From Sandaracinus amylolyticus (GTDB lineage: Bacteria > Myxococcota_A > Polyangia > Polyangiales > Sandaracinaceae), in contig NZ_CP070225.1 of NCBI RefSeq assembly GCF_021631985.1, positions 7,068,001-7,132,000 of the forward strand: 64,000 bases of DNA, in the 5' to 3' direction. Shown in pieces: positions 21,917-29,967 of the stretch. How positions within the stretch are numbered: the stretch's first letter is position 1; each line of letters opens with the position of its first letter. A model generated the notes under the pieces. The model saw only the letters and a program-made list of their open reading frames with translations, was not told the DNA's origin and did no database searches. The translations under genes were made by a program, and so were the position numbers.

Positions 21917-23614
21917 ATGCGGAACGCCTTCTCCGACTCGGGCGCACCACGCGACCTCACGCTCGTCGAGGCCCTCGTCGAGGCCGCGGGGATCGACGCG
22001 CCGTTCGCGACGTTCCACGGCTCGGGCCCGCCGCGACGCTTCGACGCGCGCGCCGCGCTCGCGAGCGCGCTGCGATGGGCATCCGCGCTGCGCGACGTCG
22101 GCGTGCAGGCGCGCGAGCCCGTCGCGATCGTGCTGCCGACGTCGGAGGACTTCGTCGGCGCGTTCTTCGGTGCGACCTGGATCGGCGCGGTGCCGCTCCC
22201 GCTCGCGACGCCGATGACGTTCGGGGGCGCCGAGCGCTACCTCGAGCACGCACGCACCATCCTCGCGCACGCCGGAGCGCGCGTGCTCGTGGGCTCACCG
22301 CGGGTCGTCGAGGCCGCCGCGGAGACGTCTCTCGCGACGATGCTCAGCGCGTCGCTCACCCCGAGCGAGATCCCCGCGACGCCGCGCCACTTCGCGTGCT
22401 CGCCGCTCGTCGAACCTTCGCATCCCGCGCTCCTGCAGTACACGTCGGGCACCACCGGGCGCCCGAAGGGCGTCGTCGTCTCGCATCGTGCCGCGGTCGC
22501 GAACGCCCGCGCGATCGTGCACGCGCTGCGCCTCTCGCACGACGACGTCGGCGTCAGCTGGCTGCCGCTCTATCACGACATGGGCCTCGTCGGCGCGATG
22601 CTCACCGCGATCGTCTGCCCGTACGCGCTGCACCTGCTGCCCACCGAGGGCTTCGTGATGCGGCCGCGGAGGTGGCTCGAGCTGATGTCCGACACCGGCG
22701 CGACGATCTCGGTCGCGCCGAACTTCGCGTACGAGATGGTCGCGCGGCGCGCCGACGCGGAAGGGCTCGACCTCTCGCGCTGGCGCGCGGCGCTCGACGG
22801 CTCCGAGCCGGTGCACGCGCGCACGCTGCGGCGCTTCGAGGATCGCTTCACGGGCGCGGGGTTCCGCGCGAGCGCGTTCTGTCCGGTGTACGGCCTCGCC
22901 GAGGCCACGCTCGCGGTGACCGCGGTCGCGCCGGGAGATGGCGCGCACGTCCTGCGCGTCGATCGCGATGCGCTCGCGGGAGGGCTCGCGCTGCGCAGCG
23001 AGCGCGAGGACGCGCGCGAGCTCGTGGGCGTCGGCGTGCCGGTACTCGGCACGTCGGTCGAGATCGTCGGCGACGACGGACGCGCGCTGCCCGAGGGTCA
23101 CGTGGGCGAGATCGCGGTGCACGGCGCGTCGCTGATGAGCGGCTATCACCGCGACGACGACGCGACCGCGCGCGCGCTCGGTGAAGGTCGCCTGCGCACC
23201 GGGGATCTCGGCTTCGTGCTCGGCGGCGAGCTCTACGTCTCGGGCCGCTCGCGCGCGCTGATCATCCAGGGCGGGCGCAACGTGCATCCCGAGGACGTCG
23301 AGCGCATCGCGATCGACGCCGACGAACGCGTGCACGCCGCGGCCGCGCTCGCGATCCCGAGCGAGGAGACCGGCACCGACGCGCTGGTCGTGGTGCTCGA
23401 GGCGCGCGGCCTCGACGCGGCGGGCAAGACGGCGCTCACCGCGCGGGTGCGCGGCGAGCTCCTCGCGCTCGCGGGCGTGCGCGCCGATCGTGTGGTGATC
23501 GGCCCGATCGGCACGATCCCGCGCACCTCGAGCGGCAAGCTTCGGCGCGGCGAGTGCGCGCGCCTCCTCGTCGACGCTCAACAGGAGGACGGTGGATGCG
23601 ACGCGCCCTCGTGA
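21917..23614 (+). CDS. Fatty-acyl-AMP ligase / acyl-CoA synthetase-like enzyme
   Basis: A 565-residue adenylate-forming enzyme. Motifs: LLQYTSGTTGRPKGVVVSH (P-loop), SWLPLYHDMGLVG (typical of fatty-acyl-AMP ligases), VYGLAEATLAVT, RTGDLGFVLGGELYVSGR and the C-terminal lysine in PRTSSGKLRR. The YHDMGL block and the operon with an acyl carrier protein point to a FAAL that activates a fatty acid as acyl-AMP and loads it onto the ACP encoded two genes downstream. Start ATG 21917 follows a 95-base divergent region. First gene of a seven-gene operon with overlapping ends. Confidence 0.9.
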   Translation: MRNAFSDSGAPRDLTLVEALVEAAGIDAPFATFHGSGPPRRFDARAALASALRWASALRDVGVQAREPVAIVLPTSEDFVGAFFGATWIGAVPLPLATPMTFGGAERYLEHARTILAHAGARVLVGSPRVVEAAAETSLATMLSASLTPSEIPATPRHFACSPLVEPSHPALLQYTSGTTGRPKGVVVSHRAAVANARAIVHALRLSHDDVGVSWLPLYHDMGLVGAMLTAIVCPYALHLLPTEGFVMRPRRWLELMSDTGATISVAPNFAYEMVARRADAEGLDLSRWRAALDGSEPVHARTLRRFEDRFTGAGFRASAFCPVYGLAEATLAVTAVAPGDGAHVLRVDRDALAGGLALRSEREDARELVGVGVPVLGTSVEIVGDDGRALPEGHVGEIAVHGASLMSGYHRDDDATARALGEGRLRTGDLGFVLGGELYVSGRSRALIIQGGRNVHPEDVERIAIDADERVHAAAALAIPSEETGTDALVVVLEARGLDAAGKTALTARVRGELLALAGVRADRVVIGPIGTIPRTSSGKLRRGECARLLVDAQQEDGGCDAPS

Positions 23615-24609
23615 TCGGAGGAACCGGCTTCGTCGGGCTCAACCTCGTCGACGCGCTGCTCGCGCGCGGCGTAGCGGTGCGGGTGACGCGCCGCGCGCGG
23701 AGCTTCACGGTGCTGGTGCGTCGGCGCCCGGTCGAGCTCGTCCCCGCGGCGCTCGACGATCACACCGCGCTCGTCGACGCGATGCGCGGATGCGACGCGG
23801 TGTTCGTCGCGGGCGCGCACTATCCGCGCTACTCGCTCCATCGCGATCGCGAGGTCGCGACCGGCGTCGCGCAGATCGCCGCGCTCGGCCGCGCCGCGCT
23901 CGAGGCCGGCGGACCGCGCGTCGTGTATCTGTCGAGCACCGGCGCGATCGGCGATGCACCACCCGGTCGCGCGGCGGACGAGCGCGACGTGCCCGACGAA
24001 GCGCCGCGCGAGAGCGTCTATCGCGCGGTGAAGTGGTCGATGGAGCGCGAGCTCGAGCGATGGCAGGCGCGCGGGCTCGACGCGATCACGCTCGCGCCCG
24101 GAGGATGCCTCGGGCCGCACGACGTGCGCGCCGGCACCGGCGGCCTGCTCGTCGGCATCGTCGCGGGGACGCTGCCGTGGTGGACCGATGGAATCGTGAG
24201 CTTGGTCGACGTCGGCGACGTCGCCGAGAGCGCGGTGCAAGCGGCGCTGCATCCCGCGCCGTCGCGGCGCTACTGCCTCGTCGCCCACAACGTCCGCCTC
24301 GGCGCGCTGCTCGCGCGCGTCGCCGCGCGCTACGGCGGACGCGTGCCCGGCCCGTCGATCGGCGCCGACGACGCACGACGTCGCGCCGACGCCGAAGAAG
24401 CCGCCGCCGCGCGCTGGCGCAAGCGCGTCCCGTTCCCGCGCGAGCTCGTCGATCTCGTCGTCGCGGGCCGTCCGATCTCGTCGGCGCGCGCGATGGACGA
24501 GCTCGGCACGCGCTTCCGCCCGCTCGAAGAGACGCTCGATCGCGCGTGGGCGTGGTTCGCGCGTCATCGCTACCTGCCCACGCTGCGCACCACCGAAGGA
24601 GCCGCATGA
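23596..24609 (+). CDS. NAD-dependent epimerase/dehydratase (3-beta-HSD-like)
   Basis: A 337-residue extended short-chain dehydrogenase. Rossmann motif LVIGGTGFVGLNLVDALLARG at the N-terminus (GxxGxxG), YLSSTGAIGD, the YxxxK catalytic pair in VYRAVKWSME, and a C-terminal substrate region. ATG 23596 has a strong ribosome site (AGGAGG at 23583-23588) and overlaps the FAAL stop by 19 bases. OleD-type enzymes of bacterial olefin synthesis belong to the same broad family and also sit by an AMP-ligase gene, but no OleA thiolase is seen here. Probably reduces or oxidises a beta-keto/hydroxy acyl intermediate. Confidence 0.88.
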   Translation: MRRALVIGGTGFVGLNLVDALLARGVAVRVTRRARSFTVLVRRRPVELVPAALDDHTALVDAMRGCDAVFVAGAHYPRYSLHRDREVATGVAQIAALGRAALEAGGPRVVYLSSTGAIGDAPPGRAADERDVPDEAPRESVYRAVKWSMERELERWQARGLDAITLAPGGCLGPHDVRAGTGGLLVGIVAGTLPWWTDGIVSLVDVGDVAESAVQAALHPAPSRRYCLVAHNVRLGALLARVAARYGGRVPGPSIGADDARRRADAEEAAAARWRKRVPFPRELVDLVVAGRPISSARAMDELGTRFRPLEETLDRAWAWFARHRYLPTLRTTEGAA

Positions 24610-29287: not shown

Positions 29288-29967
29288 GGCGCGCGCTGCC
29301 GCTCGCGGTGCTGCTCGGCTGCGCGATCGACCCTCCCGCCGGCGCGTGCGACACCGAGACCTGGATCCCGGCGGACGCGCCGCTCGCGATCCCGATGCGC
29401 GCGCGCGGCGCGATCACGTGGCAGGCGGGCTCCGGCGAGACGATCACGATCGCAGGAACGCTGGCGCGCGCCGACGAAGCGAACGCGACCACCACCCTGC
29501 TCCTCGACACCGCGGACGGCGAGCTCGAGCTCGAGATCGCGCTGCCGCGCGAGCGCCTCGGCGTCCTGCCGATCGGAGCAGCGGTCGAAGCGCGCCTCGG
29601 CCCCGGGATCGTGCTCGCCGGGGACGACGGGAGAATCCTGACCGCGGTCATTTCTCATCGCGGCGCGACCGACGCAGTCGCAGCGAACGTCACGTTCCGA
29701 CAGAGCTACGCGGAGTGCGTCGCGCGCGTCGAAGCACCGTCGTGCACCCGCGCGATGGCGACCCCGCTCGTCGACGTGGTCACCGGCGCGTCGATCGTGC
29801 GGCTGCCGCCGGGCGCGACCTGGCGCATCCCCGACGACGAGGATCCCAGCGCCGAGATCGAGATCGTCCGCAGCGTGCGCGCCCCGACGAGCGACGAGCT
29901 GAGCGAGACGCTCTGCGCGGAGCAGCCGGCGCACGAGCTCGCTGCGATCGTGCGCCGACTGCGGTGA
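29284..29967 (+). CDS. Putative exported lipoprotein
   Basis: A 227-residue protein. Short N-terminal signal with lipobox LAVLLGC, then a beta-rich mature region (ITWQAGSGETITIAGTLA, TTLLLDTADGELELEIALP) and cysteines near residue 140-150 and 210 that could form a disulfide. No known domain is recognised. ATG 29284 overlaps the GMC oxidoreductase stop (ATGA), so it belongs to the lipid operon and may assist the exported oxidase or bind its product at the envelope. Followed by the dispersed repeat. Confidence 0.75.
   Translation: MRRALPLAVLLGCAIDPPAGACDTETWIPADAPLAIPMRARGAITWQAGSGETITIAGTLARADEANATTTLLLDTADGELELEIALPRERLGVLPIGAAVEARLGPGIVLAGDDGRILTAVISHRGATDAVAANVTFRQSYAECVARVEAPSCTRAMATPLVDVVTGASIVRLPPGATWRIPDDEDPSAEIEIVRSVRAPTSDELSETLCAEQPAHELAAIVRRLR

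Follow-up and report, generated by a model that had tools for sequence, protein, structure and literature searches.

The subject of this analysis is a gene cluster of Sandaracinus amylolyticus, contained in a window of 64,000 nucleotides (the whole stretch of DNA analysed) from contig NZ_CP070225.1. Seven genes on the plus strand are tightly packed between positions 21917 and 29967, with successive spacings of -19, -4, -14, -4, +11 and -4 bases. An earlier note, made from the sequence alone, had described seven overlapping or nearly abutting genes, and the borders given by a codon-usage gene caller and an analysis of start sites agree with it. Judged by sequence comparison, the conserved unit consists of the first five: a fatty acyl-AMP ligase (FAAL), an extended short-chain dehydrogenase/reductase (SDR), an acyl carrier protein (ACP), an acyl-CoA-dehydrogenase-like enzyme (ACAD) and a B12-domain radical S-adenosylmethionine (SAM) protein. 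They apparently represent an undescribed, conserved lipid-type operon of the Myxococcota, a new combination of known kinds of enzyme. The window copy is atypical: its radical-SAM motif is damaged, and the oxidase that follows is probably unrelated.

The FAAL gene (21917..23614) encodes an AMP-binding protein that matches the fatty acyl-AMP ligase model NF006624 with 454 bits, under the cut-off of 600. Its nearest solved structure is the FAAL 3pbk (283 bits), against 113 bits for the best coenzyme A ligase matches, and by score the product is a FAAL rather than a coenzyme A ligase. In a comparison aimed at the FAAL-specific insertion, its middle part aligns to 3pbk almost without gaps; the conserved K541 is retained. 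According to PMC8460268, FAALs load holo-ACP and reject coenzyme A. The SDR (23596..24609; PF01370 Epimerase, 77 bits) is an HpnA/3beta-HSD-like reductase or epimerase in which Y142 and K146 of the YxxxK motif are conserved. Membership of the hopanoid-associated HpnA epimerases was rejected on a score of 170.7 bits against a cut-off of 367.65, and a weak match to a sterol demethylase protein reached 89 bits. In the ACP (24606..24896; PF00550 PP-binding, 50 bits) the D45-S46 pair is conserved, the phosphopantetheine serine S46 being encoded at 24741-24743. The ACAD (24883..26364; PF02771/PF02770/PF00441), presumed to be an acyl-ACP dehydrogenase, starts with GTG at 24883, an ATG at 24913 being a possible alternative; the glutamate of its FEG motif, E354, is conserved, and its matches among solved structures include the carrier-protein dehydrogenases 4irn and 6af6. 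With the B12-domain radical-SAM gene (26361..27659), these domain assignments uphold the predicted module of FAAL, ACP and dehydrogenase joined by a B12-type radical-SAM gene. The last two genes encode a GMC oxidase with a Tat-type (twin-arginine) leader (27671..29287) and an orphan lipoprotein with a VLLGC lipobox (29284..29967), coupled to the GMC gene, for which Pfam and NCBIfam profile searches gave no match. The real neighbourhood extends past 29967 and takes in a second radical-SAM gene, an FNR/Crp-like regulator and CtaA. The earlier note was thus right about the seven genes and missed the second radical-SAM gene, a lost cluster cysteine and a genomic island.

Conservation of the five-gene core

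Relatives were sought with the radical-SAM protein as the query, a strong relative being one with E <= 1e-100. Counted by hand from the match tables, strong relatives occur in 22 of 183 genomes of the order and in 28 of 377 genomes sampled from the phylum. A scan of a species-level genome collection returned 21 loci, 18 of them close and three distant (about 30% identity, in other groups). Depositors labelled the close loci mostly as myxobacterial or deltaproteobacterial metagenome-assembled genomes; three carry the labels Pseudomonadota, Proteobacteria and Oligoflexia, and two of the three come from genomes placed in the window's own phylum. Seven duplicates were dropped (L039, L040, L043, L044, L045, L047 and L056), and genes were called in all non-redundant loci and labelled with hidden Markov models (HMMs); 49 loci have a close radical-SAM gene. 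For the residue-conservation alignments, short or distant rows were removed by limits on length and identity, and the duplicates L061 and L078 were dropped.

Among the 31 of these 49 that are Myxococcota loci with at least 5.5 kb upstream, an ACAD accompanies the radical-SAM gene in 30, an SDR in 29, an ACP in 26 and a FAAL in 23, and tblastn adds four ACPs that the gene caller had missed. Four-base overlaps between core genes recur among relatives, and one group of families has the order SDR, ACP, radical SAM, ACAD. Protein distances of the radical-SAM protein correlate with those of the FAAL (r 0.93 over 25 loci), the SDR (r 0.92 over 33) and the ACAD (r 0.91 over 38). Since the first five genes are conserved in dozens of genomes, chance packing is excluded. 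The search for the same gene order in other genomes, which the earlier note had proposed, finds the first five genes again in many of them; the GMC gene and the lipoprotein do not recur with them.

The same note had found no ketosynthase and concluded that the acyl chain is modified, not extended. The observation is correct for the gene set of the window, but the conclusion does not follow from it, because a FabF-like ketosynthase (PF00109; 439 bits to the FabF model, cut-off 494) is present in nine of the 49 loci and the organism's own genome encodes FabF-like enzymes outside the operon. In L072 and L073 the ketosynthase occupies the usual place of the FAAL.

The GMC oxidase had been taken for an exported part of the pathway, a view that the comparison does not support. 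It occurs with its lipoprotein beside the operon in one of the 49 loci, that of the window, while its relatives (E <= 1e-100), found in 12 of 177 genomes with that of S. amylolyticus counted, are located elsewhere. The FAAL operon was absent from the loci of GMC relatives that were inspected; in G176 the GMC gene and the operon sit on different contigs. On these grounds both genes were rejected as pathway members, and by sequence they are probably a unit of their own, an exported oxidase that just neighbours the operon. The oxidase, with the twin-arginine motif GRRRFVG, resembles class I cholesterol oxidase (1b4v, E 3e-95), and its E396, H476 and N515 align with the active-site residues of that enzyme, which we take to be the catalytic Glu, His and Asn. 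It differs in scoring 106.9 bits to NCBIfam NF058674, under the cut-off of 850, and in having a small follower gene that overlaps its end by four bases, as do half of the ten loci inspected (L080, L153, L159, L160 and L161); these follower proteins do not all resemble one another. A second GMC oxidoreductase, unlike the first and 663 amino acids long, is encoded just upstream of the cluster (18921-20912), divergent from a Crp/FeS-assembly gene group. A NadA-like gene, which adjoins the second GMC gene in the S. amylolyticus genome (G000), was set aside as a partner of the operon, being found in three of the 49 loci, all of one genus.

The radical-SAM proteins

The B12-binding domain of the radical-SAM protein scores 39.9 bits to PF02310 (cut-off 32.1), and a Pfam profile search of the protein gave no Radical_SAM match. 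Its cluster motif reads C182-MLT-R186-SA-C189, that is, CxxxRxxC instead of CxxxCxxC; the position taken by Arg186 (codon CGC, 26916..26918, plus strand) is cysteine in 35 of 35 relatives. Thus, of the label B12-type radical SAM, the B12-binding domain stands, while the CxxxCxxC motif lacks its second cysteine here. With 24-30 private changes against 34-37 in its nearest relative, the protein shows no faster evolution than that relative. Given this, and with no close second copy in the genome, the arginine points to a recent change, a sequencing error or a protein that works differently; one changed base could account for the codon, which makes a read error possible. To judge from the motif, this genome has probably lost the radical-SAM step or carries it out in altered form.

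The structure predicted for the protein, modelled from 17 sequences, has a predicted local distance difference test (pLDDT) value of 89.5. Over most of the chain the model matches AprD4 (Z 29.1, 388 residues, root-mean-square deviation 3.4), MgmA (Z 24.4), CysS (Z 23.6), OxsB (Z 21.8) and TsrM (Z 21.3). These matches do not separate a methylase from a dehydratase. They include CysS and TokK entries solved with pantetheinylated substrates, which fits an ACP-bound substrate and proves nothing.

The second radical-SAM protein (30143..31393, minus strand; PF04055, 57.5 bits) has relatives in ten of the 49 loci, the window counted, and in seven of them the gene follows the core directly, on the core's own strand. 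By this sequence comparison it is part of the system in many relatives. Within nine genomes of the window's family, close relatives are found in G000, G176 and G174; in G176 the gene shares a contig with the B12-domain radical-SAM gene and in G174 it is beside a distant paralogue of the latter. Its structure prediction (mean pLDDT 57) was set aside. In one locus (L060:9806-12583, minus strand) its neighbour encodes a 925-amino-acid protein whose middle domain is hydrazine-synthase-alpha-like (29.9 bits, cut-off 26.6).

Genomic setting of the operon

The complete genome of a member of the same genus, G181, aligns with window positions 2000-12179 and 13638-15358, and the alignment resumes 124 bases further on at 54399-55692. 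Because these flanks are only 124 bases apart in G181, a segment of about 39 kb (15359-54398) that includes the operon has been inserted in S. amylolyticus or lost from G181. The DNA alignment covered the flanks of the segment and its interior was judged by searches for gene relatives, which found in G181 no close relative of the radical-SAM gene, the second radical-SAM gene or this CtaA. By domain content, the segment encodes a NirK-like multicopper oxidase-cytochrome c, SCO1, a NapA/NrfD-type complex, a NapB-like protein, NorB/C/D/E/Q-like proteins, a hemerythrin and Crp/FNR regulators, the Nap and Nor names being our reading of the domains; it is a predicted denitrification island. Comparison of each island end with itself alone revealed no convincing direct repeats. 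An IS110-family transposase element occupies 12238-13652, and G181 has four other copies of it, 87-89% identical.

The FNR/Crp-type regulator (31439..32200, minus strand; PF13545) is one of five Crp/FNR neighbours of the operon (in the window, L046, L048, L049 and L061), and in L061 the relative is 117 bases from the radical-SAM gene. On the other side of the operon is a CtaA/COX15-like heme A synthase (20913..21878, minus strand), the genome's second copy. COX15/CtaA adjoins the operon in six of the 49 loci (the window, L061, L062, L065, L067 and L069). At least one COX15 is present in 167 of 183 genomes; a role as a mere housekeeping neighbour was rejected, since the genomes concerned have an extra copy (two in G000, G021 and G111, three in G022, G010 and G053). 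Other neighbours are a hemerythrin in three loci (the window, L123 and L128), a NorE-like gene in L062, and an NnrS-like membrane protein (Pfam score under the cut-off) just before the FAAL in L048, L049 and L053; in these last three loci the radical-SAM gene is immediately followed by that of a DAO-type FAD oxidoreductase.

Proposed pathway, alternatives and known systems

From the observed gene content, order, conservation, motifs and predicted fold we infer all of the reactions and their sequence, as well as the product and what it is used for, and we give about an even chance to the proposal that this Myxococcota operon tailors a fatty acyl chain while it is bound to a carrier of its own. 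The FAAL would activate a free fatty acid with ATP and load it onto the ACP, the ACAD would introduce an alpha,beta-double bond in the acyl-ACP, and the SDR would reduce or oxidise C3. The B12-domain radical-SAM enzyme would then alter an unreactive carbon of the tethered chain by C-methylation, deoxygenation or C-C bond formation, among which methylation and an AprD4-like deoxygenation may be the main choices. The second radical-SAM protein would supply an extra radical step in many lineages, and in some a FabF-type ketosynthase would elongate the chain or replace the FAAL as its supplier. The product is probably an unusual acyl chain of a membrane lipid for low oxygen or for nitrogen-oxide respiration; a CDP-alcohol phosphatidyltransferase directly behind the radical-SAM gene in L069 favours a membrane lipid. 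That the operon makes an undescribed class of bacterial lipid, with two radical-SAM enzymes and a dedicated ACP, linked to nitrogen-oxide respiration or nitric-oxide stress, is a rather improbable extension of this proposal, drawn from the NnrS-like, hemerythrin, NorE, CtaA and FNR-type neighbours across lineages and from the denitrification island here.

Several observations weigh against these proposals. The radical-SAM protein of the window itself is without one cluster cysteine, and its genome holds no close second copy (the next match scores 60.8 bits against 706). Correlated distances between proteins are also produced by a common history of the species, and in two of the 49 loci, L077 and L086, a close radical-SAM gene has no core neighbour despite sufficient flank. 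Neighbours of the NnrS-like, hemerythrin, NorE-like, Crp or CtaA type occur in 12 of the 49 operon loci, the window included, against one of 37 control stretches (L203-L205 were dropped as controls, their contigs being known through the COX15 search), a contrast that is biased, and so is a lead and not a test, because the HMM families were chosen after the loci had been seen and were built from them. Crp, hemerythrin and CtaA are, moreover, common families. The radical-SAM relatives in L077 and L086 (60%) adjoin a shared protein of 326-350 amino acids.

Different chemistry would follow if the radical-SAM protein were an AprD4-like radical diol dehydratase and the SDR its AprD3-like reductase, the two deoxygenating a hydroxylated carrier-bound chain with no methylation and perhaps no cobalamin. 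AprD4-like folds may be without cobalamin. AprD4 is the best fold match of the model, an SDR gene belongs to the same operon, and the known partner of AprD4 is the NADPH-dependent reductase AprD3 (PMC5461906). The protein scores only 20.9 to the AprD4 family model NF033070 (cut-off 500), however, and most of the chain is matched by MgmA, CysS and OxsB too (Z 21.8-24.4), so AprD4 cannot be singled out by fold alone; we consider this scheme unlikely. A loss of function in this genome, with a dead radical-SAM enzyme and the remaining genes decaying or reused for plain acyl-ACP dehydrogenation, would account for the change from Cys186 to Arg and for a FAAL that differs at four positions constant in 18 of 18 relatives. 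It is a decidedly doubtful explanation given that all frames are open, that the catalytic residues of ACP, SDR, ACAD and FAAL are retained, that the radical-SAM protein is not evolving faster and that the Arg codon may be a read error.

The remaining alternatives concern what the acyl chain is for. The modified acyl-ACP might be a starter unit for a lipopeptide or polyketide made by enzymes encoded elsewhere, in keeping with the FAAL-ACP sets that prime such products (PMC9113097, PMC11837247). Against this, the flanks, as far as their genes were annotated, showed no recognisable polyketide or peptide synthetase, and conservation across distant families would be more expected of a role in lipids than of a metabolite that varies, which makes a starter unit quite unlikely. 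Very improbable, in our estimation, is a catabolic or steroid-processing set built around the GMC enzyme. Its likeness to cholesterol oxidase, with the active-site residues retained, and the weak sterol demethylase match of the SDR speak for such a set, but the oxidase accompanies just one of the 49 operon loci, and coenzyme-A-based degradation does not use FAAL or ACP.

The preferred reading, the tailoring of a carrier-bound acyl chain, has partial parallels in known systems. Daptomycin-type starter modules likewise have a FAAL, a stand-alone ACP and sometimes an acyl dehydrogenase close together, and ramoplanin and friulimicin are further lipopeptides with such modules; in our operon, unlike these, the SDR and the B12-domain radical-SAM protein belong to the core and no peptide or polyketide synthase was recognised nearby. 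AprD4, MgmA and CysS share the predicted fold over most of the chain at low identity to the window protein (18-19% for AprD4 and MgmA, 13% for CysS), and differ in operon context and in the cluster cysteine missing from the window copy. A literature search whose reach excluded most subscription papers and all bioRxiv preprints returned no description of this gene set, in keeping with the earlier note, which recognised no described pathway with it, and the accessible part of PMC12766979 contains nothing on this operon.

A stable, translationally coupled set of five genes, present in many families of a phylum noted for its natural products, points to a lipid modification that could escape routine cluster mining because no synthase marks the operon. 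The set includes a radical-SAM family for which the literature search found no characterised member. As natural experiments, the loss of the cysteine in one genome and the exchange of ketosynthase and FAAL among lineages bear on the question of which steps are required.

Anammox ladderane-type lipid clusters (PMC2649909) also combine fatty-acid-type genes with a B12-binding radical-SAM gene in a lipid locus, and a ketosynthase is present in the loci of some relatives of our operon. They differ in that the core here is FAAL and ACAD and that the radical-SAM protein was rejected from the ladderane B12 radical-SAM family (TIGR04072), for which it scores 29.6 where the cut-off is 360. L081-L085 contain clusters whose B12-type radical-SAM genes belong to distant subfamilies, several of these genes standing in tandem; L084 also contains a ketosynthase, and a gene in L082 reaches 249 with the ladderane model, still under its cut-off of 360.

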